A DNA stretch of 64,000 nucleotides from Baekduia alba (GTDB taxonomy: Bacteria; Actinomycetota; Thermoleophilia; Solirubrobacterales; Solirubrobacteraceae): positions 3,534,001-3,598,000 of the forward strand of contig NZ_CP114013.1 of assembly GCF_028416635.1 (NCBI RefSeq), given 5' to 3'. The notes beneath the pieces are model-generated. The model did not search any database, was not told the origin of the DNA, and saw only the letters and a list, made by a program, of their open reading frames with translations. Shown here in pieces: positions 18,784 through 60,546 of this stretch. A program made the position numbers and the translations under genes. Numbering within the stretch: position 1 is the first letter of the stretch; each line of letters begins with the position of its first letter.

Positions 18784-18799
18784 CGGGCAACCCTATATC

Positions 18800-18827
18800 G
18801 TGGTCAGACCAAAATTGGTCTGACCAC
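18800..18827. promoter_or_regulatory. Perfect 28-bp palindrome: FadR-type operator
   Basis: 13-bp arms GTGGTCAGACCAA (18800-18812) and its exact complement (18815-18827) around AA. Each arm is itself a TGGTCNGACCA site, the FadR-family consensus, so two sites stand back to back. It sits between the regulator start (18783) and the hydrolase start (18842), placing both under control. Confidence 0.85.
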
Positions 18828-18841
18828 AACGCGAGAGGCTC

Positions 18842-19678: not shown

Positions 19679-19681
19679 GGC

Positions 19682-19723
19682 GGCGCGCGTCGTGCCGGCC
19701 CGGTTGGCCGGCACGACGCGCCG
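19682..19723. terminator. Hairpin between convergent hydrolase and sugar operon
   Basis: GTCGTGCCGGCC / GGCCGGCACGAC, a perfect 12-bp stem with a 5-nt loop, extended outward by further GC pairs. It stands in the 56-bp gap where the hydrolase and the long minus-strand operon end. There is no T-run, so it may block both directions by structure alone. Confidence 0.6.
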
Positions 19724-19734
19724 CTGGACGCCTC

Positions 19735-36823: not shown

Positions 36824-36852
36824 ACGACTTCCTCCTTGTTGAAACAGAACCG

Positions 36853-37836: not shown

Positions 37837-39353
37837 GCTCCTTGCGCAACGTGATGGGCGCTGGCGCCCATCGCCAGCTCGATCACCCGGTGCTCGTTGA
37901 TCTCCGTCGCGGCCAGCTCACCTGCGATCTGGCCGCGACGCATGACCAGGACGCGATCGGCGATCTGCTGCAGCTCCTCGACCTCCTGGGAGATGACGAT
38001 CACCCCGCAGCCGGTCGCCACCAGATCGGCGATCACCGCGAAGATCTGCTCGCGCGCGGCGATGTCGACGCCCTGACTGGGCTCGTCGAGGATCAGCACT
38101 CGGGCGCCGGCATGGATCCAGCGGGCGATCGACACCTTCTGCTGGTTGCCGCCCGACATCGAGGCCGGCAGCGCCCCGGGCACCGACGGCTTGACCCGTA
38201 GGCGCCGCATGAGCTCGCCGGCCAACGTGCGTTCGCGGCCCAGCCGCACCAGTCCGCCGCGACCGACGGGCATCTTGGCCAACGTGATGTTCTTGGCCGA
38301 CGTCTGCTCCATCAGCAGCGCGTCGCGCTTGCGGTCCTCGGGCGCCAGCCCCACCCCGCGTGCGATCGCGTCGCGCGGAGACGCAGGTCGGTACGGACGG
38401 CCCAAGAGCGTCATCTCGCCGCCGTCGACGCTCTCGCAGCCGAACACCACGCGGGCCAGGCGCGACCGGCCCGAGCCGACCAGCCCGGTGATCCCCAGCA
38501 CCTCTCCGGCGTGCAGCGTGAAGGACACGTCGCGCAACCGCCTGCCCTGGGCCACCCCACGCAGCTGCAGCACCGGCTCCCCCGCGACCCGGCTCTGGTG
38601 GGCCGCGCGCTCGAGGTCGTGGCCGATCATCGCCCGCACCAACGCGCCCTCGTCGAGACTGCCGGCCGCGAACGTCGCCACGTCACGGCCATCGCGCATC
38701 ACCGTCACGCGGTCGCAGATCGCCACGACGTCGTCGAGACGGTGGCTGATGAACACCACCGCCACCCCTCGGCCGCGCAGGTCGCGCACGACGGCGAAGA
38801 GCCGCTCGCTCTCCTGGGCGCCAAGGGCCGCGGTCGGCTCGTCCATGATGATCACCCGCGCCTCCCGGTGCAGCGCCTTGGCGATCTCCAGCAGTTGTTG
38901 CTGTGCCGAGGTCAGCGACCCCGCCAGTACCCCGGCGTCCGTCGGGAGGCCGACCATCTCCAGCACCGCTGTGCACGCTGCCCGGTCGCGCCGCGGGTGC
39001 AGGAACATCCCGGCGCCGCTCTCCCGCCCGAGCATCACGTTCTCCACCAGACCCAGCGAACCCACCAGGCTGGCGTCCTGGTAGATCGTCGCCAGGCCCA
39101 GCTCGTGAGCCTGCCGAGGGTTCAGTCGTCTTCCGCGCCAGTCCCCAAGCGAGAGCTCACCGCTGTCGGGGTCCACGGCGCCCGACAGCGCCTTGACCAG
39201 CGTGGACTTGCCCGCGCCGTTGGCACCCACGAGCCCGTGGATCTCTCCCGGGAGCACCGTGAGATCGGCACCGTCCAGGGCGGCCGTCGCGCCGTAGCGC
39301 TTGTGCACCTGCGACGCGGCCAACGCAGGCTCCGGGTGCTGCCGACTGGTCAT
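37827..39353 (-). CDS. Ribose-type ABC transporter ATPase (second importer)
   Basis: 508 residues with two NBDs. NBD1 has GANGAGKSTLVKALSG, signature LTSAQQQLLEIAK, and VIIMDEPTAALG. NBD2 has a degenerate Walker A (GLVGSGRSRLARV), signature MSGGNQQKVSIARW and VLILDEPSQGVD. Both signature loops deviate from LSGGQ in the way usual for MglA-type proteins. ATG overlaps the SDR stop by 4 bp. Confidence 0.94.
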   Translation of the reverse strand: MTSRQHPEPALAASQVHKRYGATAALDGADLTVLPGEIHGLVGANGAGKSTLVKALSGAVDPDSGELSLGDWRGRRLNPRQAHELGLATIYQDASLVGSLGLVENVMLGRESGAGMFLHPRRDRAACTAVLEMVGLPTDAGVLAGSLTSAQQQLLEIAKALHREARVIIMDEPTAALGAQESERLFAVVRDLRGRGVAVVFISHRLDDVVAICDRVTVMRDGRDVATFAAGSLDEGALVRAMIGHDLERAAHQSRVAGEPVLQLRGVAQGRRLRDVSFTLHAGEVLGITGLVGSGRSRLARVVFGCESVDGGEMTLLGRPYRPASPRDAIARGVGLAPEDRKRDALLMEQTSAKNITLAKMPVGRGGLVRLGRERTLAGELMRRLRVKPSVPGALPASMSGGNQQKVSIARWIHAGARVLILDEPSQGVDIAAREQIFAVIADLVATGCGVIVISQEVEELQQIADRVLVMRRGQIAGELAATEINEHRVIELAMGASAHHVAQGAWT

Positions 39354-40120
39354 TGCGCCGTCCAGCCCCCGTCGACCAGCAGGTGATGGCCGGTCACGAG
39401 ATCAGCCGGCGCAGACGCGAGGTAGATGACCGCGGCCGCCACCTCTTCAGGACGACCCAGACGATCGATCGGGATCCGTCGCATGACCTCGTCGGCGATC
39501 TCCTTGTCCTTGAGCACCTCGCGGGCCAGCGGGCTGTCGATGAACGTCGGCCCAACCGCGTTGACGCGGATCCCGTAGGCGGCCCACTCCACGGCCAAGG
39601 CCTTGGTCAACTGGACCACGCCGCCCTTGCTGGCGCAGTACGCCGCTCGCTTGAAGAAGCCGACCGCGCCCATCTGCGACGCGATGTTGATGATCCGACC
39701 GCCGCGCGCCGCGGCGATCATCGCCCGGGCGACGCTCTGCGAGACGAAGAAGGTCGCCTTCAGATTGACGTCGTTGACGGTGTCCCACGCCGCCTCGGTC
39801 ACCTCGAGCGCGTTCTGCTGGATGTTGGTCCCGGCGTTGTTGACCAGGATGTCGATGGCCCCGAACCGCGCCACGGCGCGCTCCACCATCCGCCCGACCG
39901 CCGCGACGTCGGTGACATCGACGCCGAGCGTCATGGCCTGCACTCCCAGCGCCTGCGCCGCGGCCGCCGTGGTGTCCATCTGCGCCGTGTCACGGCCGAC
40001 GACGATCACGTCCGCGCCGGCACCGGCGAGCGCCAACACGATGTGCTCGCCGAGCCCGTGACCGCCGCCGGTCACCAGCGCGACCTTGCCGTCCAGGCGG
40101 AAGCTCGGAGTCGCGCTCAC
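39350..40120 (-). CDS. SDR-family dehydrogenase in the acid-sugar operon
   Basis: 256 residues: TGGGHGLGEHIVLALAGAGADVIVVGRD (Arg after strand 2 suggests NADP), NNAGTNIQ, Ser in NIASQMGAV, YCASK, and VDGGWTAQ. Resembles gluconate 5-dehydrogenase/2-deoxy-D-gluconate 3-dehydrogenase-type SDRs. GTG start at 40120 forms a GTGA overlap with the flavin oxidase stop. Likely oxidises or reduces a sugar-acid carbonyl ahead of the kinase and PdxA-like steps. Confidence 0.88.
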   Translation of the reverse strand: MSATPSFRLDGKVALVTGGGHGLGEHIVLALAGAGADVIVVGRDTAQMDTTAAAAQALGVQAMTLGVDVTDVAAVGRMVERAVARFGAIDILVNNAGTNIQQNALEVTEAAWDTVNDVNLKATFFVSQSVARAMIAAARGGRIINIASQMGAVGFFKRAAYCASKGGVVQLTKALAVEWAAYGIRVNAVGPTFIDSPLAREVLKDKEIADEVMRRIPIDRLGRPEEVAAAVIYLASAPADLVTGHHLLVDGGWTAQ

Positions 40121-41574
40121 CGCTGCTCTCCCAACGGGAGCAGCTTGCCCGGGTTGAGGATGCCAGCTGGGTCCAACGCGCCCTTGATCGCCTGAAGCAC
40201 CCGCAGTCCCGCGCCGTGCTCCTGCGCCATCCACCGCGCACGGGCCACACCGACGCCGTGATGGTGCGACAGCGACGCTCCGGCCGCCATCGCGGCGGTG
40301 GTGACGTCTTCCCAGACCCGCAGGTAGGCCTGCTCGGCCGCCGCGTCGCTCTCGGCCTCGACGGTGAAGATCACGTAGAGCGAAGTGCCGGACGGATAGA
40401 CATGTGAGAAGTGCGCCAGCACCCTGCTGGCGTGCCGATCCGCCGCCGTGGTCGCCGCCTGGTAGACCTGTTCGGCGTCGCGCCAGCGCATCGAGATCTC
40501 GATCGTGTCGGCCAGGCCGTTGCGTCGTTCGATCGCGGCGATCAGCGGCGCGACGTCGAAGCGGCTCTCGAACCAGGCCTCGCCCACGGCCGAGCCGAGC
40601 CCGGCACCCCCGTGACGGGCGCAGATCGCGCCAGCCTGCGTCTCCTGCCCGCTCACCGTCTCCTCGTCGCCGTCCCAACCGAGGACGAGCAGCGGCGTCC
40701 CGGCAGCCTCCCCCACCGCCTCGAGCAGCCGCTGCGCCTCCTCCGCGTCGTAAAGGCGCACGAGCGCGGGCGCGCGGTCGAGCTGGGCCAGCTCTCGGAT
40801 CGTCGCGATCGCCGCCCCGAGCTCTGCGAAGCGAAAGCCCGCGAACCGGCGAACGGCAGGAACGGGACGGACGCGGACGTCGACCTCCGTGACGATGCCC
40901 AGCGTCCCCTCCGAGCCGATGAACACGTCGGTCAGCTCGGGACCCGCGGAGCGACGCGGGCACGGGGCGATGTCGATGAGCTCGCCATCGGGCAGCACGA
41001 CCCGCAGGCCGTCGACGATGTCCTCGATGTTGCCGTACCGCGAGGAGAACGTACCCGAGGCGCGCGTCGCCACCCAGCCGCCCAAGGTCGACAGATGCAG
41101 CGACTGCGGAAAATGCCCGAGCGTGTAGCCGCGCTCGTTCAACCACCGCTCCAGCACGTCGCCCTTGATCCCGGCCTCGGCGGTGACCAACAGCGAGACC
41201 TCGTCGAACTCGAGCACGCGGTCCATCCGACGCAGGTCGATGAGGATCCCGCCGTCGGCCGGGATCGCACCGCCCACCACGCTCGACCCCGCACCGTATG
41301 GCGTCACCGCGACGCCGCACGCCTGCGCCCGGCGCAGCACCTTGGCGATCTCCTCGGCGTTCGAGGGCCGCACGACCAGCGCCGGATGCGGCACCCGCTC
41401 ACCGAGCAGCTCGCGCTTGCTCGCGATCGGCCACCGATCCGCCCCGTACCGCGCGCACACCTCGGGATCGGTCGTGTAGGCCTCCGTCGGCAACCCGGCG
41501 ACCAACTCGTCGACCGCCGGCAACGGCCGCGAGGCCGGCACCAACTGCTCAAGCGTTACAGCGTTCAGTCCCAC
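40117..41574 (-). CDS. AGPS-like FAD-linked oxidase
   Basis: 485 residues of the FAD_binding_4/FAD-oxidase_C family. FAD-binding loop VTPYGAGSSVVGGAIPADGG; then TLGHFPQSLHLSTLGGWVATRASGTFSSRYGNIEDIV and the His triad ASLSHHHGVGVARARWM, both typical of the alkyl-DHAP-synthase branch rather than of glycolate oxidase. C-terminal ILNPGKLLP. Ether-lipid synthesis is unlikely in this operon; oxidation of a 2-hydroxy acid or an unusual C-O bond cleavage is more plausible. GTG at 41574 has AAGGAG 7 nt upstream, so the gene overlaps the kinase by 26 bp. Confidence 0.82.
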   Translation of the reverse strand: MGLNAVTLEQLVPASRPLPAVDELVAGLPTEAYTTDPEVCARYGADRWPIASKRELLGERVPHPALVVRPSNAEEIAKVLRRAQACGVAVTPYGAGSSVVGGAIPADGGILIDLRRMDRVLEFDEVSLLVTAEAGIKGDVLERWLNERGYTLGHFPQSLHLSTLGGWVATRASGTFSSRYGNIEDIVDGLRVVLPDGELIDIAPCPRRSAGPELTDVFIGSEGTLGIVTEVDVRVRPVPAVRRFAGFRFAELGAAIATIRELAQLDRAPALVRLYDAEEAQRLLEAVGEAAGTPLLVLGWDGDEETVSGQETQAGAICARHGGAGLGSAVGEAWFESRFDVAPLIAAIERRNGLADTIEISMRWRDAEQVYQAATTAADRHASRVLAHFSHVYPSGTSLYVIFTVEAESDAAAEQAYLRVWEDVTTAAMAAGASLSHHHGVGVARARWMAQEHGAGLRVLQAIKGALDPAGILNPGKLLPLGEQR

Positions 41575-42850
41575 GACCAGGCTCCTTGTCGTCGTCGATG
41601 CTCGTGTGCGCCCGTGTGCTCGCCCCATTGGCCGCCGTCGCCTGCAGCCAGCCGCTGATCCGCGCGAAGGCATCCTCAGGCCCGTAACTGCCCGGCTTGG
41701 CGGCCAGCCGTAGACCGGTGAACGGACCATCGACCACCGTGGCCAGCGGCACGCCGGCGATCACCTCCTGGGCGATCGCCAACGTCGGGCTGCCCAACGC
41801 CCGCAAGAACGCCTCGGCGACATCACCGCCCGTGGCGATCACGCCGGCCACCGGCATGGAGCGGACCACCGCGTGGCCGAAGCTGGCCAAAAGCTCAACG
41901 ACCTGATGGGCATCCGCGGCGTCGAACCCCGCCGCCGGGACATCCCCTGTCACCGCGAGCAGGACGTTGCGCCCGCTGCGCAGCGTCATCAGCGTCTGCT
42001 CCAGCAGATCGTCGTTCTCCTCGCGTGGGTGCTCGAGCGAGATCACGGTGGCGATGCCATGACCCACCGCATGGTCGACCTGCCCGCGCCCGACCGCACT
42101 GGCCGTCGCCGACAGCACGAGCACCGGACCGACGGGCTCCAGCGCGCCGACCTCGATCAGGGCGTCCGCGACCGCCGCACCCATGCCGCTCGTGCCGGCG
42201 AAGAGGTGGATGCCCGCACCGACTGCTGCCGCGGCGACGGTGCGCAGATCGTCCAAGGTCGCCGCGTCGCAGACGATCGCCTTCGTGTCTTCCAACTCCG
42301 TCAGGCGCTCGATCTCCTCCCGCAGCGCGTCGCGCCCAGCGGCGACCAGATGCAGCGGGACATGTCGAACTCCGGAGACATCGGCGCCGAGCAGCTCACA
42401 GACGTCCGCGCTACCGGCCGCCGACAGCAGATGCGAACCCGGATCCAGCGCGGCGGCCAGCGGCCGGCCGTCGACGTGTTGCGTCCCGCCCACGGTCGTC
42501 CGGCCATGCAGCGGGGCGGCGAAGGTGCAGACCGCCGGGCCCGCGCCGAAGCCGCCCAGCGTCGCCTGGAGCTCAGGGCCGATGTTGCCGCGCAGCAGCG
42601 AGTCCACCTTCTTCAGGCAATAGCGCGCGCCGGCATCGCGAACCGCCCGGATCGCTTCGGCGGCGCGATCCGCTGCCACCGGGGCTTCGAGGTTGCGGCT
42701 ATCGGTCGAGATCGCGGCGCACGTGCTCAGCAGCGCGTCGGCGTCGCCCACCGGCAGCACGGTTGTGGCGATCCCGCGAGCCGCGACCTCGCCGGCCACC
42801 GAGACGACGCCGGTCAGGTCGTCCCCCACGATGGCCAACACCACCGTCAT
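41549..42850 (-). CDS. DUF1537 four-carbon acid sugar kinase
   Basis: 433 residues. N-terminal domain: VLAIVGDDLTGVVSVAGEVA and LKKVDSLLRGNIGPELQA (substrate site). C-terminal domain: GVIATGGDVAEAFLRALG and AAKPGSYGPEDAF (ATP site). This family phosphorylates threonate, erythronate and similar acids; its members occur next to PdxA-like dehydrogenases that convert 4-phosphothreonate on to dihydroxyacetone phosphate and CO2. That very neighbour lies immediately upstream with a 4-bp overlap. Confidence 0.92.
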   Translation of the reverse strand: MTVVLAIVGDDLTGVVSVAGEVAARGIATTVLPVGDADALLSTCAAISTDSRNLEAPVAADRAAEAIRAVRDAGARYCLKKVDSLLRGNIGPELQATLGGFGAGPAVCTFAAPLHGRTTVGGTQHVDGRPLAAALDPGSHLLSAAGSADVCELLGADVSGVRHVPLHLVAAGRDALREEIERLTELEDTKAIVCDAATLDDLRTVAAAAVGAGIHLFAGTSGMGAAVADALIEVGALEPVGPVLVLSATASAVGRGQVDHAVGHGIATVISLEHPREENDDLLEQTLMTLRSGRNVLLAVTGDVPAAGFDAADAHQVVELLASFGHAVVRSMPVAGVIATGGDVAEAFLRALGSPTLAIAQEVIAGVPLATVVDGPFTGLRLAAKPGSYGPEDAFARISGWLQATAANGASTRAHTSIDDDKEPGRGTERCNA

Positions 42851-43872
42851 CGATCGACCATCGTCGTCGCACCCCGACGCGCGCGAACGCGCCAAAGATC
42901 AGACGCGAGCATGATCGCGTTGACCATCGGCGTGGCGTCGGCCTTGCCCTGCCCGGCGATGTTGTAGGCCGACCCATGCCCGACCGTGGTCCGCAGCACC
43001 GGCAGGCCGTAAGCGAACGTCGCGTAGCCGTGGCGCTTGAGCGGGACGACACCCTGATCGTGATACAGCGCCAGGATCCCGTCGTAGGCCCCGCGGTCCG
43101 CCTGCAGGAACAGCGCATCGGCCGGCACCGGGCCGACGACATCGAGCCCCAGGGCTTGCAGATCCTGCACGGCCGGCTCGATCAGCTCGCCCTCCTCGAC
43201 CCCCATGAGACCGTCGTCGCTGGCATGGGGATTCAGCGCCGCGACCGCGATCCGCGGCCGACTGATGCCGAAGGCCTCGTCGAGCGCGCGAGCCAGCCGC
43301 TGAACGGCCAGCAAGACACTCTCGCGGGTAACCAGGTTGATGGCCTGCGTGAGCGAGACGTGGGAGGAGAGCAGCGCCACCCGCATCGGACCGCCGACCA
43401 AGATCGTCATGGCCGACGGGCTGCCGGTGAGCGCCTCGAGATACCCGGTCTGCCCCGGGTATGCCGCGCCACCGAGCTCGAGCGCCCGCTTGTTGACCGG
43501 GGCGGACACGATCGCGTCGATCGTCCCGTCGGTCGCCAGCGCCACCGCGCGCGCCGTCTCCCGGGCGGCCGCCCGACCGGCGGCCTGCGACAGAACGCCG
43601 GGCGTCCACTCGCCATCGTGCAGGTCGTCGGTGTCCAGCACCTGGATCCCGTCGACCTCTTCGAGCAGCTCTTCAGGCGCCGACGCCACGTGGACCGACT
43701 TCGGCGGCACGCCGGCGACCCGGGCGCCGGCGGCCGCCACGTCAGCGGAGCCGATCAGCAGCGGCCGGCACGCGGCGGCGACACGACGATCCCGAGCAGC
43801 CACCACAGCCACCTCGGGGCCGACGCCCGCCGCTTCGCCCAGCGTGATGCCGATCGTGGGCCTCACCGTCAC
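42847..43872 (-). CDS. PdxA-like 4-phospho-acid dehydrogenase (PdxA2 type)
   Basis: 341 residues: TIGITLGEAAGVGPEV (normally GDPAG, here GEAAG), SSHVSLTQAIN, HDQGVVPLK and TVGHGSAYNIAGQGKAD with the three metal-binding histidines in place. PdxA oxidises 4-phosphohydroxythreonine in B6 synthesis; PdxA2 paralogues in sugar-acid operons act on 4-phosphothreonate or -erythronate. The DUF1537 kinase downstream argues for the catabolic role. GTG start at 43872 (GTGA overlap). Confidence 0.9.
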   Translation of the reverse strand: MTVRPTIGITLGEAAGVGPEVAVVAARDRRVAAACRPLLIGSADVAAAGARVAGVPPKSVHVASAPEELLEEVDGIQVLDTDDLHDGEWTPGVLSQAAGRAAARETARAVALATDGTIDAIVSAPVNKRALELGGAAYPGQTGYLEALTGSPSAMTILVGGPMRVALLSSHVSLTQAINLVTRESVLLAVQRLARALDEAFGISRPRIAVAALNPHASDDGLMGVEEGELIEPAVQDLQALGLDVVGPVPADALFLQADRGAYDGILALYHDQGVVPLKRHGYATFAYGLPVLRTTVGHGSAYNIAGQGKADATPMVNAIMLASDLWRVRARRGATTMVDR

Positions 43873-45086
43873 ACCGCCCGGCCCGTCGGCACCAGAGCGA
43901 TGGGGAACTGCCCGGACAACACGTCGACACCGTCCTCCGTGACGACGACGTTGTGCTCGTTGCGCACACCGCCGACGCCCGGCACGTAGGCCGCGGGCTC
44001 CAGTGCGAAGTACATCCCGGGCGCGAGCACATGCGTCGAGTTCGGGGTGACCGTCGGGATCGGCTCGTGGTACTTCCAACCGAGGCCGTGACCGACGTGA
44101 TGGAGCATGTACTTGCGGTAGTCGCCCATCGCCTCCCGCGCCGCTCGGTCGACATCGGCCGCCGGGACGCCCGGCCCCGCCGCCGCGATCGCGGCGGCCA
44201 TGCCCGCATCGCAGGCCTCGGCCAGCTGAACCTGCGCCTCGGTCGGCGTGCCCACCACGATCGTGCGTGTTGAGTCGACGTAGTAGCCGTCGACCGAGCA
44301 CGCGAGCTCGATGATCACGAGATCGCCGTCCTCGATCCGCCGATCCGTCGTGGGCTTGTACACCCACGTCTCGGTCGCTGAGCCGCTGAAGGTCTGCGGC
44401 CAGCCCATGGCAAACCGAGCACCTTGGTAGCCGATCCCGCGCTCAGTGATCGCCGCCTGGTAGGCGCCGGCCGCCTCGGCCTCGGTGCCTTGGCGCAGGC
44501 ACACGTCGCGCCAGGCTTCCAACCCGAAGGCGTTGACCTCGTTGGCGCGTCGCAGCCGCTCGATGTCGCGTGGCGTCTTGAACGCCCGGATCGCGTTGAT
44601 CACATCCGTCGCGTCGACCAGCTCGGCGGTCGGGAACGCCGCCGCCAGCGCCGCCTTCGACGGCTCGGCCGGGACCACCGGCTCCGGCACGATCACCGGC
44701 GGCGCGATGAACTCGAAGCTGCCCTCGTAGCCCACCCGCCGCGCCGGGAACCGCTTCTCGGCCGCGATCGCCGCCAGATGGCGGTTGATGTGGTCGCCTG
44801 AGCTGAAGTGCGTGGCCTGCGGGGTCTCGACCTCACGCGGATCCCACATCGGGAAGGTGCGGACATCCGTCACCCACCCGTCGGAGAACCACTCTTCCTC
44901 CCGGCTGGAAGCGATGAGGATCGGATCGCCCTCGCGCGGGAACACCACCGCCGCGTAGCCCAGGACACACAGGAAGCCGCTGAGCACGAGAACGTTCTCA
45001 GCCAACCGGCAGACGAGGACGTCGAGGTCGGCCCGCTCCATCTCCTCGCGCACCCGCGCGAAGCGCAACGCGTCAGGCTCGATCAT
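43869..45086 (-). CDS. M24-family metallopeptidase fold protein (Xaa-Pro peptidase/creatinase-like)
   Basis: 405 residues with a creatinase N-terminal domain (about 1-150) and the pita-bread fold. Four of the five M24 metal ligands are clear: Asp in GYYVDSTRT, His in HHVGHGLGW, Glu in ALEPAAY and Glu in VRNEHNVVV. The first, normally Asp, is Glu (ELACSVDGYYVD). Members can be peptidases, creatinases or the DMSP lyase DddP, so the enzyme may cut a non-peptide bond. First gene of the acid-sugar operon, with a LacI-type operator 86 bp upstream. Confidence 0.85.
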   Translation of the reverse strand: MIEPDALRFARVREEMERADLDVLVCRLAENVLVLSGFLCVLGYAAVVFPREGDPILIASSREEEWFSDGWVTDVRTFPMWDPREVETPQATHFSSGDHINRHLAAIAAEKRFPARRVGYEGSFEFIAPPVIVPEPVVPAEPSKAALAAAFPTAELVDATDVINAIRAFKTPRDIERLRRANEVNAFGLEAWRDVCLRQGTEAEAAGAYQAAITERGIGYQGARFAMGWPQTFSGSATETWVYKPTTDRRIEDGDLVIIELACSVDGYYVDSTRTIVVGTPTEAQVQLAEACDAGMAAAIAAAGPGVPAADVDRAAREAMGDYRKYMLHHVGHGLGWKYHEPIPTVTPNSTHVLAPGMYFALEPAAYVPGVGGVRNEHNVVVTEDGVDVLSGQFPIALVPTGRAV

Positions 45087-45171: not shown

Positions 45172-45187
45172 TTGGTTACGTATTCAA
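45172..45187. promoter_or_regulatory. LacI-type operator, site A
   Basis: TTGGTTACGTATTCAA: an imperfect palindrome (TTGnnTACGTAnnCAA) with the central CG of LacI-family operators. It differs in two of 16 positions from site B at 46461 and is placed upstream of the M24/PdxA/DUF1537/ABC operon. Target of the LacI protein at 46491 by inference. Confidence 0.7.
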
Positions 45188-45235
45188 CGGCGAGCGATCG
45201 CGACATCCGGCGATCTGGCCGGCCGGCAGGGTCGG

Positions 45236-46408
45236 TCAGGCCGCCGAGCCCGTGCGTGACCACAGCCGCTCCGAGGCGATCGCCGCTCCTTGGGCCAGCG
45301 CGTCGAGCTTCATCCACACGACGTTCTCGAACACCGCGCCGAAGCCGACGAACGTTCCGAAGCCGCAGTCCGATCCGGCGATGACGCGCTCGCGACCGAT
45401 CGCACGCGCGAAGCGCTCGATCCGCTGAGCCACCAGGCGCGGATGCTCGACGTAGTTGGTCGTCGTGTCGATCACCCCAGGGATCATCACCTTCTCGTCC
45501 GGAACCTTCAGGTCCTCGAAGATCTCCCACTCGTGCTCGTGGCGGGGATTGGCCGCCTCGAACAGGATCCCGTTGGGCAGCGCCTTCTTGAGCACCGGCT
45601 CCAGGACGTCACTCAGCGGGATGTCGAACTGGTGTGGCGCCTCGTAGTTGGCCCAGCAGAGATGCATCCGGATCTGATCGGCCGGCAGCCCGCGCACCCC
45701 ATGGTTGAGCGCCTCGATGTGGAGCTCGACGAACTTGCGCAGGCCGAGCTTCTCGACGATCGGCGTCATCCAGCCCACGGTGTGCGCGACGCAGCCGATG
45801 TCCGGACAGTCCAGCTGCAGCAGGAGCCCAGCGTCGGTGATCGCTTTGTACTCCTCGCGCATCGCCTCCGCCGCCGCGAACAGGTACTCCTCGTAGCTGG
45901 GGTAGTGCCGGTTGGTCATGTGGTAGGCGATGATCCCCGGCGAAGCAGCCGGGATGAACGCCTCGGCGACTCCGTGGCGCTCCATCGCCGCCTTCAGGTT
46001 GGCGATGTCGCGCTGGACGTACTCGTGCCCGCGATAGCGCAGCTCGCCCTCGCAAGCCGGCATGTGGATGTGGCCGGCCGCCTCGTCCTCGAAGTAGAAC
46101 GCCTGCAGCTCCGGAACGGTGGCCAGGTCCGTGAAGACCCACGGATCGGTCTCGCCGCCAAGGCCATCGAGCCGGTAGCGCAGGTAGTTGCTGAAGCCCG
46201 GCTTGCCCATCTCGCCGTCGCTTGGGATGGCGACGCCCGCCGCGACCTGGCGCTCGACGATGGCATCGACGTCCTTCTGGACCGTGCCCCAGAGCGTGTC
46301 GTCGTCACCGTGACCTTCCTGGTGCTCGAACATGAGTTGCGTCAACTCGGAACTACGCGGCAGGCTGCCCACATGCGTGGTCAGGATGCGCTCTTCGCTG
46401 CGCTGCAT
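45236..46408 (-). CDS. Cobalamin-independent methionine synthase (MetE C-terminal-like) zinc methyltransferase
   Basis: 390 residues corresponding to the C-terminal catalytic barrel of MetE alone. TTHVGSLPR start, substrate loop SDGEMGKPGF, and the zinc site: HxC in RMHLCWANYEAPH (about 250) and the distal Cys in AGSDCGFGTF (about 350). Stand-alone relatives include core methionine synthases that take methyl from corrinoid proteins, and epoxyalkane:CoM transferase. It probably moves a methyl or alkyl group to or from homocysteine or another thiol. The ATG at 46408 follows AGGAGGAG. Divergent from LacI. Confidence 0.85.
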   Translation of the reverse strand: MQRSEERILTTHVGSLPRSSELTQLMFEHQEGHGDDDTLWGTVQKDVDAIVERQVAAGVAIPSDGEMGKPGFSNYLRYRLDGLGGETDPWVFTDLATVPELQAFYFEDEAAGHIHMPACEGELRYRGHEYVQRDIANLKAAMERHGVAEAFIPAASPGIIAYHMTNRHYPSYEEYLFAAAEAMREEYKAITDAGLLLQLDCPDIGCVAHTVGWMTPIVEKLGLRKFVELHIEALNHGVRGLPADQIRMHLCWANYEAPHQFDIPLSDVLEPVLKKALPNGILFEAANPRHEHEWEIFEDLKVPDEKVMIPGVIDTTTNYVEHPRLVAQRIERFARAIGRERVIAGSDCGFGTFVGFGAVFENVVWMKLDALAQGAAIASERLWSRTGSAA

Positions 46409-46434
46409 GACGTGCTGCTCTCCTCCTGAATCGT

Positions 46435-46468
46435 GGAACCAAAATGACCCGCGTCCAGCTTTGGTTCC
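46435..46468. promoter_or_regulatory. Inverted repeat in the MetE-like/LacI promoter region
   Basis: GGAACCAAA (46435-46443) and exact complement TTTGGTTCC (46460-46468), 16 bp apart. The right arm overlaps operator site B. It may be a second half-site for LacI looping. Confidence 0.5.
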
Positions 46469-46476
46469 GTATTCAT
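46461..46476. promoter_or_regulatory. LacI-type operator, site B
   Basis: TTGGTTCCGTATTCAT, a CG-centred near-palindrome matching site A at 14 of 16 positions. It lies 14 bp before the LacI start and 52 bp before the MetE-like start, so it can control both. Confidence 0.7.
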
Positions 46477-46490: not shown

Positions 46491-47576
46491 ATGATGTCTA
46501 GTGTGTCCGCAGAACAAAATCAGCCCAAGCGAAAGACCAATGTCGAATTTGCAGGGCTTTCTAACTCTGAACGCGTAACCAGTCGACACATCGCGAAGGC
46601 CGCCGGGGTGTCGCAGACCACCGTGTCCCGCGTCCTGAGCGGCAGCAACCTCGTCACGCCGGACACCCGTGCTCGCGTCATGCAGGTCCTGGAGGAGTAC
46701 GGCTACCAGCCCAACGCCATCGCCCAGGCGATGGTCACCGGGCGCACCTCGACGATCGGGGTCGTCGTCGACGGCATCACCAATCCGTTCTATCCGGAGC
46801 TGCTCGAGGCGATCGCCAACGCGATGGAGGGCTCCGGCTACCGGATGACCCTGTGGTCCTCCGGCGCGGCGTCGGAGCCGGCGGCCATCGAGGCGATCTC
46901 CCAGCGCCTGGTCGACGGCATCATCTTCACCGGCGCCGTCGCGGACTCCCCCGCGCTCCAGGAGGCGACCAAGGGCGAAGCGCCCCTGGTGCTGCTCAAC
47001 CGCTACGTCGATGGCGTCCGCTGCGACACGGTCACCACCGACAACGTCAGCGGCGGCCGCGCCGCGGCCGAGCACCTGCTCAGCCTGGGGCATCGCTCGC
47101 TCGGCGTCATCGGTGCCGCCCCCGACCTCAGCACGGCCCGCGAGCGCGAGCAGGGCTTCCGCGAGGCGCTCGCAGCACATGGCCTCGAACCCTGGATCGA
47201 CCGCGGCCAGCCCTCGTTCCACCTCGGCTGGGAGGCACTTCAGGAGCTCGCCACGATGCCCGAGCGTCCGACCGCCGTCTTCTGCATGAACGACATCACC
47301 GCCTTCGGCGTGCTCTCCGCCGCCCAGCGATTCGGACTCAGTGTCCCGGGTGACCTGTCGGTCCTGGGCTTCGACGACATCGACATGGCCCAGTGGGAGA
47401 CGTTCAACCTGACCACCGTGCGCCAGCCGATCGTCGAGATGGCGCAGAACGCCGTACGACTCCTGCAGGAGCGTATCGAGGACCCGACGCGCAAACCGCG
47501 GCACCGCTGTCTCGAAGCGCGCGTCATCCTGCGCGACACCACCGGCGCGCCCGGCGCGCGGAGCGGAAGGTCGTAG
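46491..47576 (+). CDS. LacI-family regulator
   Basis: 361 residues. After an AT-rich 27-residue leader comes the LacI headpiece (RVTSRHIAKAAGVSQTTVSRVLSG, hinge YQPNAIAQAMVTGRTSTIGVVV), then a Peripla_BP_3 ligand domain with LGFDDIDMAQW and VRQPIVEMAQNAVRLL. Divergent from the MetE-like gene and first of a + strand run with the MFS carrier, fused methyltransferase and LuxR genes. Operators A and B suggest it controls the acid-sugar operon as well. ATG at 46491 or 46494; no strong ribosome site. Confidence 0.92.
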   Translation: MMSSVSAEQNQPKRKTNVEFAGLSNSERVTSRHIAKAAGVSQTTVSRVLSGSNLVTPDTRARVMQVLEEYGYQPNAIAQAMVTGRTSTIGVVVDGITNPFYPELLEAIANAMEGSGYRMTLWSSGAASEPAAIEAISQRLVDGIIFTGAVADSPALQEATKGEAPLVLLNRYVDGVRCDTVTTDNVSGGRAAAEHLLSLGHRSLGVIGAAPDLSTAREREQGFREALAAHGLEPWIDRGQPSFHLGWEALQELATMPERPTAVFCMNDITAFGVLSAAQRFGLSVPGDLSVLGFDDIDMAQWETFNLTTVRQPIVEMAQNAVRLLQERIEDPTRKPRHRCLEARVILRDTTGAPGARSGRS

Positions 47577-47584
47577 CCGCAACC

Positions 47585-48742
47585 ATGCGGCGGCTCGCGG
47601 CATACGGTCTGGGCGCGGCGACGGGGTGGAACGTCGGGAACGTCGGCGGGGTCACCGCGGATCTGGCCTCGACCTACGGCGTCGGCCTCGGCGCGATCGG
47701 CCTGTTGACCACGCTGCTGCTGATCAGCCACTCGCTGGTCCAGGTACCCGGCGGGAGGCTGATCGACCGCTTCGGCGCGCGGCGCGCCGGGCTCGCGTCG
47801 GCGGCCGCGCTGGGGCTCGGCAACCTCGTGGCCATGGCCGGCGCGTCGTTCAGCATCGCCGCCGCCGGTCGTGTGGTTGCGGGGATCGGTACTGGGCTGG
47901 CGTTTCTCGCCGGCAACGCGCTGTCGCGATCGGGGCGTCGCTCGAACGCCTCACAGGGCCTGTTCGGCGGCCTGGCCGTCGGCGCGGGCGGGCTGGCCAT
48001 CGCCACCGTCCCGCTGGCCTGGACGCAGGTCGGGTGGCGCGCCCCGTTCTTGACCGCCGTGCTGTTCGCCGCGCTCGTCGCCGGTCTGCTCGCCCTGTTG
48101 CCGCACGCCGCCGACCAGCGGCCGAGCACGCCGTCAGACGACTCCCAGAGCGTGCTGGCCGACCGCCGAGTCCACGCGCTGGCCATCGTCTACTCGGCCT
48201 CGTTCGGGTTCAGCGTCGTCGCCGGAACGTGGGCGGCGGAGGTGTTGGTGCGTCACGGGGTGCTCACGAAGGGACCCGCCGCGACCGTCGCGTCGCTGAC
48301 CCTCCTCGTCGGCGTCGTCGCCCGCCCCTTCGGTGGGTGGATCGCCGGCAGGGGCGCACGAACAGCGCAGCGCGCGGTCGCGGCGAGCCTCGCGGCCGGC
48401 GCCATCGGAACGATCACGATCGTCGTCGCCCACTCGGCGACGCTGGCGGTCGCGGGCACATCGTTGGTCGGATTCGCGGCCGGCGTGCCGTTCGTGCCGG
48501 CGTTCGCGGGGGCCGCCGCGCTGTGGCCCGACACACCGGCGACCGCCGCCGGCGTCGTCAACACCGCGGCCAATGCCACCGCACTCATCGGCACCCCTCT
48601 GGTGGGCGTAGCGTTCGGACTGTCGGCGTCGGGCGCAATCGGCTTGATCGCGATCGCCACGCTGTGGCTCGCTGCGCTCGCCGCCGTCCCAGCGATCGGC
48701 GAGGCGCTTCGTGCGTTGGCGCCGAGGAGACCGCCACCATGA
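47585..48742 (+). CDS. MFS transporter
   Basis: 385 residues with 12 hydrophobic segments. Loop 2-3 motif A is present as GGRLIDRFGARRAGL; the equivalent in the second half is GGWIAGRGARTAQRA. Belongs to the nitrate/CynX-like compact MFS group by eye, substrate unknown. Starts 8 bp after LacI with GGAAGG upstream. Its stop overlaps the fused methyltransferase start by 4 bp, so it likely carries the substrate or product of that enzyme. Confidence 0.88.
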   Translation: MRRLAAYGLGAATGWNVGNVGGVTADLASTYGVGLGAIGLLTTLLLISHSLVQVPGGRLIDRFGARRAGLASAAALGLGNLVAMAGASFSIAAAGRVVAGIGTGLAFLAGNALSRSGRRSNASQGLFGGLAVGAGGLAIATVPLAWTQVGWRAPFLTAVLFAALVAGLLALLPHAADQRPSTPSDDSQSVLADRRVHALAIVYSASFGFSVVAGTWAAEVLVRHGVLTKGPAATVASLTLLVGVVARPFGGWIAGRGARTAQRAVAASLAAGAIGTITIVVAHSATLAVAGTSLVGFAAGVPFVPAFAGAAALWPDTPATAAGVVNTAANATALIGTPLVGVAFGLSASGAIGLIAIATLWLAALAAVPAIGEALRALAPRRPPP

Positions 48743-50496
48743 CCGTCGACGCTGTGGGTGGGTACCGGCAGATCGACGACGCGCTGACCGCGGGCCGCTG
48801 CGTGCTGCTCGATGGCGGCGTCGGAACGGAGCTCCTTCAAGAACAAGGACAGGACGACGAACGGCTCTGGGGCTTCGAGTCGTTGGCCTCGGCACCCGAC
48901 GACGTCCTCGACGTCCATCGCCGCTACGTCGACGCCGGGGTCGACGTCATCACCACCAACACATGGGCGTTGCCCACCGCGTTGCAGAACGGCGGCAGCG
49001 TCCGCCGCGCCAACGGCCGACCCATCCACTGGATGGAGATCGCTCGGCGCGGCGTTCGCGTCGCACGGCAGGCCATCGCCGACGGCGGTCGCGACGGCCG
49101 GTGCGCGGTCGCCCTCGCCGTCAACGGCGACCTCGACACCCCGGAAGGCATCGACGTCGTGTCGGTCCTTGCGCGTGCCCTGATCGACGACCCGCCCGAC
49201 ATCATCCTGTTCGAGACGCTCTCGGTGCTCCGACCGTCGTTGTTCGCCGTCGTCGAGGCCTTGCAGGCCACAGGCATCCCGACCTGGGTTTCGTTTCGCC
49301 GCTGCCCGCACGGTCTGTGCGGCGTCTACGGCCAGCACTGGGGCGGGCCCGAGGCCGATGCCTTCGGTCACGCCGCGCGCCGCTTCGAGGGGATGGGCGT
49401 CGGAGCGCTGCTCGTCAACTGCATCCCGCCCGACCACGTCGACGGCATCGTGTCCTACCTGCGCGACTTCACCGACATGCCGCTCGGCGTCTACCCCAAC
49501 CTGGGGTACTACACCAGCGCCGGGTGGCGCTTCGAGTCTGAGATCGGCGGACCGCAATACGCCGCCATGGCCCTGCGCTGGCGCGCCGAAGGAGCGCAGA
49601 TCATCGGCGGCTGCTGCGGCACCCGCGCCGAGCACATCGCCGCCGCCGGCAAGGCGCTCGACGGCATTCCCGCAGGTCGTGAGCGACGCTTCGAACGCGA
49701 GGGCGGTGAGCAGCACACGACGCCATCGCCGGCCCGCCAACCCGACTGGACCGACAAACGCGGTCGCACCCTGTACCCGCTGACCCTTCCGGAGATCGAT
49801 CGCCACACCGGCGTCGCCCGGCCGATCCCAGGCAGCCACCTTCTGTGGCGACACCTGTTCCTCGAAGGTGTCGGCGCACATCAGCGCTGCCTCGACATCG
49901 CCTGCGGCGCCGGCCTTCAGACCATCCAGCTCGCCCTCAACGGCGCCGCGCATGTCCACGCACTCGACGTCGACACGCTCGCTGTCGGCAACACGCTGGC
50001 CAACGCGTTTCGCAACGGGGTCGCCGACCGCGTCAGCGGAGAAGCCGCCGACCTCTTCCCGTGGCTGCCGGAGGAGCACTACGAGGTCATCGTCGCCAGC
50101 CTTCCCCAGACCCCGGTTGGTCCCGCAGCTGGGCTGGCCTCGCACCGACCCACCGACTACTGGGGCCGCGGCCTCGTCGACCAGGTCATCGCCAAGCTCC
50201 CCCATGCTCTGGCCAAGGAGGGCATCGCGCTCCTCACCCACACGTCGCTGCTCTCACGGGAGCGGACGATGCAGCTTCTCGCCGAACGAGGGCTCTACGC
50301 CGAAGTGGTGGCCTGGCAGCTCGAGCCACTGCCCACCGAGTACCTCGACCAGGGTGAGCACCTTGCCCAGCTCGAGCAGCACGGCGAGGGGTACCTCGTT
50401 CACACCGGCGAGAGTCGATCTCTCGTCGTCTACGTCCTCGAGATCCGCCACGGCCGAACAGGCGCAAACGGCAGCCCGCCGTGGGCTTCGCGATGA
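48739..50496 (+). CDS. Fusion: homocysteine S-methyltransferase + SAM-dependent methyltransferase
   Basis: 585 residues in one uninterrupted frame. Residues 1-310: homocysteine S-methyltransferase barrel (LLDGGVGTELL) with all three zinc cysteines, Cys228 in VNCIP and Cys292-Cys293 in GGCCGTR. Residues about 340-580: class I methyltransferase with SAM motif DIACGAGLQT (386-395), acidic ALDVD end of strand 2, and SLPQTP (454-459) where HemK/PrmC enzymes have NPPY. The 'LPQ' resembles plant methionine S-methyltransferase (IPQ). One half could make a methylated sulfonium or acid and the other pass the methyl to homocysteine; this is inference. Both ends have 4-bp overlaps with neighbours. Confidence 0.88.
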   Translation: MTVDAVGGYRQIDDALTAGRCVLLDGGVGTELLQEQGQDDERLWGFESLASAPDDVLDVHRRYVDAGVDVITTNTWALPTALQNGGSVRRANGRPIHWMEIARRGVRVARQAIADGGRDGRCAVALAVNGDLDTPEGIDVVSVLARALIDDPPDIILFETLSVLRPSLFAVVEALQATGIPTWVSFRRCPHGLCGVYGQHWGGPEADAFGHAARRFEGMGVGALLVNCIPPDHVDGIVSYLRDFTDMPLGVYPNLGYYTSAGWRFESEIGGPQYAAMALRWRAEGAQIIGGCCGTRAEHIAAAGKALDGIPAGRERRFEREGGEQHTTPSPARQPDWTDKRGRTLYPLTLPEIDRHTGVARPIPGSHLLWRHLFLEGVGAHQRCLDIACGAGLQTIQLALNGAAHVHALDVDTLAVGNTLANAFRNGVADRVSGEAADLFPWLPEEHYEVIVASLPQTPVGPAAGLASHRPTDYWGRGLVDQVIAKLPHALAKEGIALLTHTSLLSRERTMQLLAERGLYAEVVAWQLEPLPTEYLDQGEHLAQLEQHGEGYLVHTGESRSLVVYVLEIRHGRTGANGSPPWASR

Positions 50497-51377
50497 TCGC
50501 CGACGTCCGCATCCCCGGCGACGCGACGGTCGTGCTCAGTCGCCTGACCGAGCTCGGGCCCGCCAGCGAGATCCGTGCCCATGCGCCGGCGCTGGCCGCA
50601 CAGGCGCTGCGTCTCGATCGTGTGGTGCTGACCAGCATCGTGGACGGTGCGCTGCTCGCCGAAGCCATCTTCGCCGGCTCCGAACGCACCGCCGCCGACC
50701 TGCTGGCGCGCCTGCGGGAACAGCCCGTCGCCCTCGAGTACCCGCTGCTGGAAGGCGAGATGTTGCGTCGGCGCCGGGCGCAAGTCGTCCACACGCCGCA
50801 GCATGACCGCACAACCCGGACGCTCTTCGCCGACGCTCTCGAGTGGACGCAGTACATCGCCGCGCCGATCGTGCTCGACGGCCGCGTCGTCGGCTTCTTC
50901 CACGGCGACCGTCGCCAGAACGACCCCGAGCTCGACGAGCATGACGCGGCCGACCTGGCGTTCTTCGCCGCCTGCTTCGCGCTCGTCTACGAACGCGCCG
51001 TCCTGCGCCATCGCCTCCGCACCCAGCGTGAGGAGATGCACCAGATCGCCAGCTGGGCCGATGCCCGCACCGGCGAGCTCGGCGATCGCTCCGTCACCAT
51101 CGCCCACGACGCGTCCGACACCGACAGCACGCCGCTCTGCCAGACCTCAGGACGCGGCGAGAACGCTCTCCGTGATCTGCTCACCCGTCGCGAGCTCGAG
51201 GTTCTGCGGCTCATGGTCCAGGGCGAGACCAACGCCGGCATCGCGCGAGAGCTCGTCGTCTCCGAGGGCACGGTCAAGTTCCACGTCAAGAACATCCTGC
51301 GCAAGATGCACGCGGCCAACCGGGCCGAGGCGACCTCGCGCTACCTGCGCATGACGCTCAGGCAGACCGTCGACTGA
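50493..51377 (+). CDS. LuxR-family regulator with GAF-like sensor
   Basis: 294 residues. The N-terminal two-thirds resembles a GAF domain (ALEWTQYIAAPIVLDGRVVGFFHGDRRQ). The C-terminal HTH (about 225-285) has LTRRELEVLRLMVQGETNAGIARELVVSEGTVKFHVKNILRKMHAANR, textbook LuxR. I place the start at ATG 50493, overlapping the upstream stop by 4 bp, rather than GTG 50481. Last of the LacI-MFS-fusion run. Its 3' end overlaps folD on the other strand by 20 bp, so it may sense a product and control the SAM/C1 operon. Confidence 0.88.
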   Translation: MIADVRIPGDATVVLSRLTELGPASEIRAHAPALAAQALRLDRVVLTSIVDGALLAEAIFAGSERTAADLLARLREQPVALEYPLLEGEMLRRRRAQVVHTPQHDRTTRTLFADALEWTQYIAAPIVLDGRVVGFFHGDRRQNDPELDEHDAADLAFFAACFALVYERAVLRHRLRTQREEMHQIASWADARTGELGDRSVTIAHDASDTDSTPLCQTSGRGENALRDLLTRRELEVLRLMVQGETNAGIARELVVSEGTVKFHVKNILRKMHAANRAEATSRYLRMTLRQTVD

Positions 51378-52233
51378 CACCGTCTGCGCCCGCGGCGAGC
51401 AGCGTGTTGCGCAGCAGGCAGGCGATCGTCATCGGGCCGACGCCACCGGGCACCGGCGTGATCGCCCCGGCGACGTGCTTGACGCGGTCGAAGTCGACGT
51501 CGCCCACCAATCCTCCGCCGGTGCGGTTGATCCCCACGTCGACGACCGTCGCGCCCGGCTTGACCCAGTCGGCTGTGACCATCCCAGGCCGACCGACGGC
51601 GGCGATCAGGACGTCGGCCTGGAGGCACACCGACGGCAGATCGACGGTGCGGCTGTGGGAAGCGATCACCGTGGCATCGGCGGCCAACAGCATCTGCCCC
51701 ATCGGCTTGCCGAACAGGTTCGAGCGACCGAGCACGACGGCCACCGCGCCGCGCAGCTCGACCCCGGCCTCGGCCAACAACACCATGACGCCCGCCGGCG
51801 TGCACGGCCGCAGCCCTGGCAGGCCGAGCGCGAGCCGCCCCGCGCTGACCGTGGTGAGGCCGTCGACGTCCTTGTCCGGGGCGATCCGGTTGGTGATCTC
51901 GGCGCCGTCGAGATGCGCGGGCACCGGCAGCTGGCAGAGGATGCCGCTGACGTCGGCGTCGGCGTTGAGCCGGTCGACGAGCGCGAGCACCTCCGCGCGG
52001 GTGACGTCCCCGGGCAGCGCGTGGTGGAAGCTCTGGATGCCGACCTCGGCACAGGCGCGTCGCTTGGCCGCGACGTAGACGGCCGACGCGGGGTCGTCGC
52101 CGATGAGGATCGTGGCCAGGCCGGGCGTGCGCCACGACGCCGACGCGAGCCCGCGGACCTGCGCGGCGACGTCCGCGCGGACCCGCGCGGCCACGGCCTT
52201 GCCGTCGATGACGATGGCGGTGTCGAGCGCCAC
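51358..52233 (-). CDS. folD: FolD: methylene-THF dehydrogenase/cyclohydrolase
   Basis: 291 residues: catalytic Tyr/Lys in AVYVAAKRRACAEVG, ILCQLPVPAHLDGAEI, PCTPAGVMVLLAEAG, NADP loop VLGRSNLFGKPM and GGVGPMTIACLL. Interconverts 5,10-methylene-THF and 10-formyl-THF. It is the last gene of the operon and follows purU by 3 bp, so methylene-THF made upstream can be oxidised to formyl-THF and then released as formate. GTG start. Housekeeping copies exist in most genomes; this one may be an extra. Confidence 0.95.
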   Translation of the reverse strand: MALDTAIVIDGKAVAARVRADVAAQVRGLASASWRTPGLATILIGDDPASAVYVAAKRRACAEVGIQSFHHALPGDVTRAEVLALVDRLNADADVSGILCQLPVPAHLDGAEITNRIAPDKDVDGLTTVSAGRLALGLPGLRPCTPAGVMVLLAEAGVELRGAVAVVLGRSNLFGKPMGQMLLAADATVIASHSRTVDLPSVCLQADVLIAAVGRPGMVTADWVKPGATVVDVGINRTGGGLVGDVDFDRVKHVAGAITPVPGGVGPMTIACLLRNTLLAAGADGVSRRSA

Positions 52234-52236
52234 GAC

Positions 52237-53133
52237 TCAGAACACCACGGTCGTGTTGCCGTGGCGCAACACGCGGTCCTGGCAATGCCATTGCACCGCT
52301 CGGCCGAGCACGCCGCGCTCCACCTCGGCGCCCTGGCGCACGAGCGACGCCACGTCATCGGCGTGGCTGACGCGCACGACGTCCTGCTCGATGATCGGCC
52401 CGGCGTCGAGCTCCTCGGTGACGTAGTGCGCGGTGGCGCCCACGAGCTTGACGCCGCGCTCCTTGGCCCGCTCGTACGGGCCCGCCCCGGCGAACGCCGG
52501 CAGGAACGAGTGATGGATGTTGATGACCGGCACGCCGACGCGGTCGAGGAAGTCGCCCGAGAGGATCTGCATGTAGCGGGCCAGGACGACGAGGTCGCAG
52601 CGGCCGTCGAGCAGCTCGAGCAGCTGTGCCTCGGCCTCGGGCTTGTCGCCCTTGGTGACCGGGACGTGGTGAAACGGGAGGCCGGTGGCCTCGACGAGCC
52701 CGCGGAAGTCCTCGTGGTTGGAGGCGACGAGCACGAGCTCGGCGTCGAGCTCCCCGCGTTGCCAGCGGTACAACAAGTCGACGAGGCAGTGGTCGTAGCG
52801 CGAGACCAGCACCGCGATCCGCTTGCGCTGGGAGGCCTCCCACAGGCGCCAGGTCATGTCGAAGCGGTCGGCGACCCCGAGGCCGAAGCGCTCGGCGAAG
52901 CCCTCGCGGCGCTCGGGCGCCAGCTGGAACTCCATGCGCAGGAAGAACGTCCCGTCCACCGGGTCCGTCGAGTACTGGTCCGAGCGCACGATGTTGGCGC
53001 CGGAGTCGAACAGGAACCGCGAGACCGCCGCCACGATCCCGGGACGGTCGGGGCACGAGACCAGCAGGCGCATCGTGACCGCGGTGGCGGGCATCGTGAG
53101 CACGGGCTCGGAGATCGTCGCTGTGTCGGTCAT
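52237..53133 (-). CDS. purU: Formyltetrahydrofolate deformylase
   Basis: 298 residues. N-terminal ACT domain (about 22-90: [26 protein letters not shown]) and C-terminal formyl-transferase fold (about 105-298) with the catalytic set [13 protein letters not shown] and [20 protein letters not shown]. Hydrolyses 10-formyl-THF to formate and THF. It regenerates free THF, so placed beside FolD, MetF and a GcvT-like protein it completes C1 disposal as in THF-dependent demethylation clusters (ligM-metF-ligH arrangement). ATG overlaps the TenA-like stop by 4 bp. Confidence 0.95.
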
Positions 53134-53849
53134 CGGATGGCGGCCTCCTCGACCGCAGGCGAGGGGGACGACGCGCCGGTGAGCGCGTCGCAGAACTCGG
53201 CATGGGCCTGCGCCGTGGCGCGCGCCCCGGCGAGCAGGGCGAAGGGATCCGCGCGGTCCAACTGGCCCTCGATCGCCGCTTCGAGGGTGGCGAGCGCGCC
53301 GCCGGCGACATGGCGGTCGAACCAGACCGCGCCGCCGGGATCGATCCCGTAGCGGGCGAAGAGCCGCGCGGCCTGCGGCGGGACGAAGGCGGCCGTGGCG
53401 CGCTCGACGACCCAGAGCGCGACGAGCGTCGCGGCGAGCGGGCGCACCGCCGACCCGATCACGGCGCGCGCACACGCCGCCGTCGCGTCGCGCACGATCG
53501 ACGGCTCGCCGGTCGGTGCGCCCACCGCACGACCGAACGCCAGCCACCGCGCGACGTCGGCCTTCGCGCGCAGGGCGGCGATCGCCAGCTGCTCGCCCAA
53601 CAGGGCGTCGGCCGTCCCCGCCGCGTGATACGCGGCGGCCGCAACGGCGCGCACGACCAGCTCGTGCTCGACCGCGAACGCCCGCAGCTCCTCACGGGTC
53701 AGCGCGCCGCCACGCCAGCGGGTGACGAAGGCCTCGTCGCGCACGTCCTGCCGCGGCAGGCACAGCTCGAGCTCGGCCCAGAACCACTCGGTCCGCGCCG
53801 GCCGCCGTCGGTGCTCGACCGCGGCCATCGCTTCGCACGCGAAGCACAT
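53130..53849 (-). CDS. TenA/heme-oxygenase-fold protein
   Basis: 239 residues, all-helical: [59 protein letters not shown], then [38 protein letters not shown]. This is the TenA/PqqC/CADD fold. Possible diiron ligands (E/H in VEHELV, YH, E in VVERA, D/H in FDRHVA) recall heme-oxygenase-like diiron oxidases but are not proven. It starts with MCFACEAM, an odd CxxC. In this operon it might oxidise a methylated compound or aid folate or thiamin supply. Nine bp after ahcY. Confidence 0.6.
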
Positions 53850-53858
53850 CGTCGCGGG

Positions 53859-55318
<1,460 letters not shown>

Positions 55319-55322
<4 letters not shown>

Positions 55323-58929: not shown

Positions 58930-58940
58930 GGCGGCGGTCC

Positions 58941-60443: not shown

Positions 60444-60546
60444 GACCGTCTCCTCCGTCAGCGGGGCGCGACGTCGGCATGGTCCGCCGCGCGGCCCCGC
60501 CTCGACCACGCCCGAACGAGATGGATCGCCCTGCCCTACGAGCAGG

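Follow-up and report, generated by a model that had tools for sequence, protein, structure and literature searches.

Results

A putative acid-sugar operon is read from the minus strand of the window, by which we mean the whole 64-kb stretch of DNA analysed here. It begins with a gene for a hydrolase of the M24 metallopeptidase/creatinase fold (43869–45086; PF00557, 158 bits), for which one orthologue was found in the phylum, 40% identical and located beside an SDR gene and an ABC operon. The next two genes encode a PdxA-family dehydrogenase (42847–43872; PF04166, 285 bits) and a DUF1537 (SBD_N/NBD_C) protein that resembles four-carbon acid-sugar kinases (41549–42850; PF07005 and PF17042). The PdxA-family protein matched PDB entry 4jqp (E 1e-62) as well as 6e85, a D-threonate 4-phosphate dehydrogenase (E 2e-55). 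The DUF1537 protein scored 120.6 bits with the D-threonate kinase model, below its cut-off of 450, and the threonate-4-phosphate dehydrogenase model gave 212.6 bits against a cut-off of 583. No orthologue of the DUF1537 protein was found in the order at E ≤ 1e-30. Further along are genes for a GlcD-like FAD-linked 2-hydroxyacid oxidase (40117–41577; PF01565/PF02913; TIGR00387 at 181.8 bits, below the cut-off) and an SDR dehydrogenase (39350–40120) that is 48–51% identical to SDRs encoded beside sister LacI genes. From our reading of the open reading frames, an RbsA-type ABC transporter ATPase (37827–39353) and an RbsC-type permease (36853–37836) follow. The gene after them encodes an RbsB-type sugar-binding protein (35711–36913), which was matched by allose/ribose-binding protein models below their cut-offs. 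The operon ends with a small protein (35273–35674) that, on the same reading, we take by recognition to be RidA-like.

On the same strand and upstream of this operon lies a gene for a core-MetE-like zinc/homocysteine methyltransferase of 390 residues (45236–46408; PF01717, 34.8 bits) without an N-terminal folate-binding domain. Divergent from it is the gene for a LacI-family regulator of 361 residues (46491–47576, plus strand), which is PurR-like over residues 30–349 (E 4e-46). The features that define the family are all present in this protein, namely a helix-turn-helix with a TVSR recognition helix (GVSQTTVSRVL), a hinge helix with its methionine (PNAIAQAM) and a core like that of periplasmic binding proteins. 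It also carries an N-terminal extension of 28 residues before the helix-turn-helix (46491–46574) that its closest homologues do not have. An MFS transporter gene (47585–48742, plus strand; weak MFS models) starts 8 bp after lacI, and its stop codon is overlapped by a gene for a homocysteine S-methyltransferase/SAM-dependent methyltransferase fusion (48739–50496, plus strand). In the fusion, residues 22–306 match PF02574 (142.9 bits) and residues ~365–455 form a PrmA/MTS-type methyltransferase. A LuxR-type regulator gene (50481–51377, plus strand), whose homologues of 37–50% identity lie beside the fusion in relatives, overlaps the fusion gene in turn. With the genes 8 bp apart or overlapping and no terminator-like site found between 44900 and 50700, lacI, MFS, fusion and luxR appear to form an operon that would be co-transcribed.

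The fusion and LuxR genes are also part of a C1/SAM-cycle gene set (48739–60446). Its other members encode FolD, PurU, AhcY, a PfkB kinase, MetK, a SoxG-like protein, a MetF-like protein and a methyltransferase-like protein of 501 residues; these are on the minus strand and end at 60446. The genes for MetK, AhcY, MetF, FolD and PurU are 1–11 kb away. Of the 232 genomes of the order, 26 contain parts of the set, often together with sarcosine-oxidase-like genes, and Haloechinothrix (L060, L062, L063) has a similar one. Such a set might carry methyl groups via SAM to formate.

Two 16-bp sites were examined as candidate LacI operators. Site 1, TTGGTTACGTATTCAA (45172–45187, plus strand), sits in the 149-bp gap between the MetE-like gene and the M24 gene, 86–101 bp upstream of the M24 start (45086) and hence ahead of the entire M24-PdxA-DUF1537-FAD oxidase-SDR-ABC-RidA operon. 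Site 2, TTGGTTCCGTATTCAT (46461–46476, plus strand), lies between the divergent lacI and MetE-like genes, 15–30 bp upstream of the lacI ATG (46491) and 53–68 bp upstream of the MetE-like start (46408). Their places, their CG centres and their identity at 14 of the 16 positions are all as the original prediction had them; the mismatches are at positions 7 and 16. That prediction also called them near-palindromes, which holds for site 1 (six of eight symmetric pairs) and is generous for site 2, where only four of the eight pairs are symmetric. Since the flanks of the two sites diverge outside about 16 bp, the likeness is that of a shared site, not of a duplicated segment. The perfect operator that they imply would be TTGAATACGTATTCAA, and their variant left half is TTGGTT(A/C)CG. 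A sigma-70 promoter scan recognised no −35/−10 pair.

The uniqueness of the sites was assessed genome-wide by pattern searches with mismatches and by matrix scans in the 64-kb window. With a pattern derived from sites 1 and 2 themselves, a search of the window at three or fewer mismatches returned these two sites only, where 0.07 matches were expected. A search of the genome (5,863,246 bp, ~5.86 Mb) at two or fewer mismatches likewise returned sites 1 and 2 only, and the reversed-pattern control returned none. At that threshold, matches of similar quality are not scattered over unrelated genes of the genome. The best 16-mer identity between the two intergenic regions was 14, while the maximum in 120 Markov shuffles was 13. 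These mismatch counts depend on a pattern taken from the sites, and the independent test is a matrix made from homologues only.

That matrix was drawn from the closest LacI homologues found in a phylum-wide sample, which share 52–53% identity with the window protein and come from two genomes (G257 and G575) of another family than the window genome. The recognition helix is identical in the three proteins and the hinge methionine is the same. Upstream of the two homologues we found ATGAATACGTATTCAT, a perfect palindrome with all eight pairs symmetric, ATGAATACGTATTCAC and AAGGTTCCGTATTCAA. The 13-mer GGTTCCGTATTCA, odd left half included, is common to site 2 and to AAGGTTCCGTATTCAA, which precedes the G575 orthologue. 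The G257 and G575 genomes each contain the exact core TGAATACGTATTCA a single time, at lacI. A matrix built from ATGAATACGTATTCAT, ATGAATACGTATTCAC and AAGGTTCCGTATTCAA alone ranked sites 1 and 2 first and second in the window with 23.45 and 22.19 bits, respectively. The next best score in the 64 kb was 13.86 and the maximum over 60 simulated 64-kb windows was 17.2. This result is an independent confirmation of the operators. By the footprints beside the homologues and the cross-genome matrix, the two sites are, as originally proposed, almost certainly operators of the LacI protein encoded at 46491. In a survey of the LacI family, over 75% of the predicted sites were located 140–30 bp ahead of a start codon (PMC4052901).

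More distant relatives carry variants of the motif. These are TGTATACGTATACA in G239, where the helix is of the QA type, TGGATACGTATCCA in G589, CTGTATACGTATGCAG in G082, TGACTCCGGAGTCA in G095 and G047, and TGCATACGTATTCA, ATGCATACGTATTCAT and TTGCATACGTAGTCAC in G102. The motif varies together with the recognition helix, which is of the QT, QA, QP or QS type. In G257, G575, G102, G239, G589 and G082, the sites adjoin the LacI homologues or their target genes. No LacI orthologue above 48% identity was found in the genus or in 201 genomes of the order, the 48% match having different neighbours, and we found no close orthologue with the same neighbourhood as in the window.

A possible third operator with an odd spacing of 17 bp, TTGGTTCC-A-CGATTCAG (46426–46442, minus strand), is located in the leader of the MetE-like gene and overlaps the ribosome-binding site. 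Apart from a frame-shifted site 2, it is the best odd-spaced match in the 64 kb. We consider it suggestive only, with ~0.12 such matches expected per 64 kb and a count of 33 in 3000 local shuffles. A candidate within the lacI coding region (46567–46582) was rejected with a score of 9.3–9.6, which is not above chance, and a match in the RbsB start region (36818–36833; score 13.9) is at chance level.

The neighbours of the sister regulators were examined for what this LacI clade may control. In G575, the regulator gene stands near genes for RbsA, two copies of RbsC and a binding protein, for one protein of the cyclase family and one resembling 3-hydroxyacyl-CoA dehydrogenases, and for an SDR that is 48% identical to the window SDR. 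The neighbours in G239 are a HisD-like protein, an SDR (51%) and a dehydrogenase of the same type as in G575, with two sites before the HisD-like gene. G102 belongs to the same order as the window genome and its LacI is 44% identical; there an operator separates a DUF1537-PdxA pair on the minus strand from a HisD-SDR-dehydrogenase-SDR-cyclase-lacI operon on the plus strand, and RbsA has a second site ahead of it. No methyl-transfer genes were present in the sister LacI loci examined. These arrangements support the view that SDRs and Rbs-type uptake are under the control of the clade, as is a PdxA-DUF1537 pair in one relative, and control of an acid-sugar-type pathway looks ancestral. The sister regulon of the same order (L072, 2668–10646), in which PdxA-DUF1537 genes diverge from the HisD-SDR-dehydrogenase-SDR-cyclase-lacI genes with ATGCATACGTATTCAT as the operator between them, looks like an acid-sugar or polyol pathway. 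At the loci L132, L133, L134, L135 and L073, from several families of the phylum, LacI proteins of the clade occur repeatedly with HisD-family dehydrogenases and/or SDRs and with matching operators.

The MetE-like protein retains the zinc residues His249, Cys251, Glu284 and Cys348 and the homocysteine residues Ser15, Glu66 and Asp200, the roles of which are taken from MetE proteins (PMC7857596). Across 34 sequences these seven residues are invariant, except for Glu284, which is found in 30 of 34. With all seven intact, S-methyl transfer to homocysteine is credible for this protein. As no folate-binding domain is present, ordinary methyl-folate is probably not the methyl donor of this protein. 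A separate MetH-type gene is present elsewhere in the genome. A genome can hold as many as five members of the MetE-like family (L029–L058), as G171 does, which hints at a variety of methyl donors or substrates.

In G082 and G095, a paralogue of the MetE-like gene is no more than ~11 kb away from the methyltransferase fusion, and in Haloechinothrix one adjoins an AhcY cluster; the two methyl-transfer genes of the window therefore make a natural pair. No operator above background was detected at the 18 fusion loci or at the other MetE-like loci fetched from relatives, and the link of methyl genes to LacI appears particular to this genome. Nor did the homologue-only matrix find an operator in the main C1 operon of the window (FolD to 60446). 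The case for LacI control of methyl transfer is the weaker one and comes from position, that is, from the place of site 2, the suggestive odd-spaced site and the tight lacI-MFS-fusion-luxR spacing.

Discussion

We propose that sites 1 and 2 are operators of the adjacent LacI protein and that it would control the genes on both sides through them, an explanation that we hold as a whole to be very probable. Our confidence that the predicted operators are real is high, and we think it likely that the acid-sugar operon and the MetE-like gene are controlled jointly. As for the control that the original prediction had placed over sugar-acid uptake and methyl transfer together, the acid-sugar side is borne out by the G102 sister regulon, where it is kept, and the methyl side is less secure. 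The LacI protein, which would itself bind to both sites, is most likely a repressor rather than an activator and may be released by an inducer of the sugar-acid type. At site 1 it would block transcription of the M24-PdxA-DUF1537-FAD oxidase-SDR-RbsABC-RidA genes. At site 2 it would block the MetE-like gene and at the same time autoregulate the genes for LacI, the MFS transporter, the homocysteine-methyltransferase fusion and LuxR. The inducer would then raise the uptake and catabolism of the acid sugar along with methyl transfer to homocysteine.

It is conceivable that the repeated 16-mers are some other element, such as a promoter motif or the site of another regulator, or that they arose by chance. 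Both contain the same asymmetric left half in the same orientation relative to the minus-strand genes, as might be expected of such an element. Against this, the motif is found beside LacI homologues in other families, where it is essentially unique, it covaries with the recognition helix, and the asymmetric half recurs in the site before lacI in G575. We consider this reading very improbable.

If the sites are operators of LacI, what the two sides have in common can be understood in two ways. The regulator may serve the acid-sugar pathway only, with the MetE-like gene and the fusion caught up by their position, through the divergent promoter and read-through, and with no shared substrate. The sister regulons speak for this, as they hold SDRs, HisD, the HAD dehydrogenase, a cyclase, RbsABC and, in G102, DUF1537-PdxA, and none of the methyl-transfer genes; so does the fusion/C1 module, which occurs in 26 of the 232 genomes and lacks this regulator at the 18 loci examined. 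The separate operator at the MetE-like promoter region does not fit so readily, nor does the proximity of MetE-like paralogues to the fusion (G082, G095) and to the AhcY cluster (Haloechinothrix), by which the methyl genes belong together. We give this reading about an even chance. Alternatively, as the original prediction suggested, the two sides may share one methylated substrate of the acid-sugar type. It would be imported by RbsABC and demethylated by the MetE-like protein onto homocysteine, the methyl group going to methionine, SAM and the C1 module and the skeleton to DUF1537-PdxA. The link of both sides at the level of operators is in keeping with this, as are the intact zinc and homocysteine residues of a MetE-like protein whose missing folate domain leads one to expect an unusual methyl donor, the nearby MetK, AhcY, MetF, FolD and PurU genes, and the MetH-type gene that could attend to ordinary methionine synthesis. 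On the other hand, the main C1 operon is without an operator, and we know of no MetE-family enzyme shown to demethylate a sugar acid. A single methylated substrate seems rather unlikely to us, and we rank ahead of it, as the simpler reading, an acid-sugar regulon to which the methyl genes are joined by their position. Less likely still, in our estimation, is that the locus represents a new kind of system: a LacI-controlled, aerobic and corrinoid-free demethylation of a methylated acid-sugar-type compound onto homocysteine via a core-MetE-like protein, with the methyl group passing to a methionine/SAM/folate module and the skeleton to DUF1537-PdxA.

The predicted joint regulon of the LacI protein can be compared with known systems. 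Local sugar regulons of the LacI family were surveyed by Ravcheev et al. 2014 (PMC4052901). The window resembles them in its even, CG-centred 16-bp operator 30–140 bp upstream, in autoregulation and in the Rbs-type ABC operon beside the regulator, and it departs from them in its asymmetric operators and in targets that would include a core-MetE-like gene and, via the lacI operon, a homocysteine-methyltransferase fusion. As in the PdxA2/DUF1537 pathways for D-threonate and erythronate, PdxA and DUF1537 genes are adjacent in one operon with a transporter. In contrast to those pathways, the window proteins score far short of the curated thresholds of the D-threonate kinase and D-threonate-4-phosphate dehydrogenase models, and the operon has an additional M24 hydrolase, GlcD-like oxidase, SDR and RidA. 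Like the core methionine synthases MesA-MesD (Price et al. 2021, PMC7857596; core-MetE, PMC7005905), the MetE-like protein has one MetE catalytic domain in which the zinc and homocysteine residues are kept, and it has no folate-binding domain; an unusual methyl donor is analogously expected for other core MetE proteins. However, it is only weakly similar to the named methionine-synthase models, no DUF1852 (MesX) partner was seen in the window neighbourhood, and its locus is catabolic and would be controlled by LacI. Glycine betaine/sarcosine demethylation (for example MtgBCD, PMC12478193) offers a parallel in the notion that catabolism of a methylated compound is tied to the methylation of homocysteine, in the C1 genes nearby and in the sarcosine-oxidase-like genes nearby in relatives. 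The proteins are different, though, no corrinoid protein is among the annotated neighbours, and the type of regulator and ABC transporter suggests a sugar-like substrate. We found nothing on point in the literature concerning a link between LacI, methionine synthase and sugar acids or a combined C1 cluster.

The outcome is a well-supported operator, predicted from sequence and confirmed across families, for a LacI clade for which we found no assigned function. The regulon provides a handle on the substrates of core-MetE-like proteins, of which there are often several per genome in the order, and of divergent PdxA-DUF1537 pairs. If both sides were to share one substrate, there would be a new demethylation route for sugar-acid-like compounds; if they share none, this would be a local sugar regulon of the ordinary kind, and its neighbours would be incidental. 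Elsewhere in the window, at 18127–30753, our reading of the open reading frames shows a second sugar-type cluster with genes for a GntR regulator, an 874-residue glycoside-hydrolase-like protein, an enolase-superfamily protein and an Rbs-type ABC transporter.
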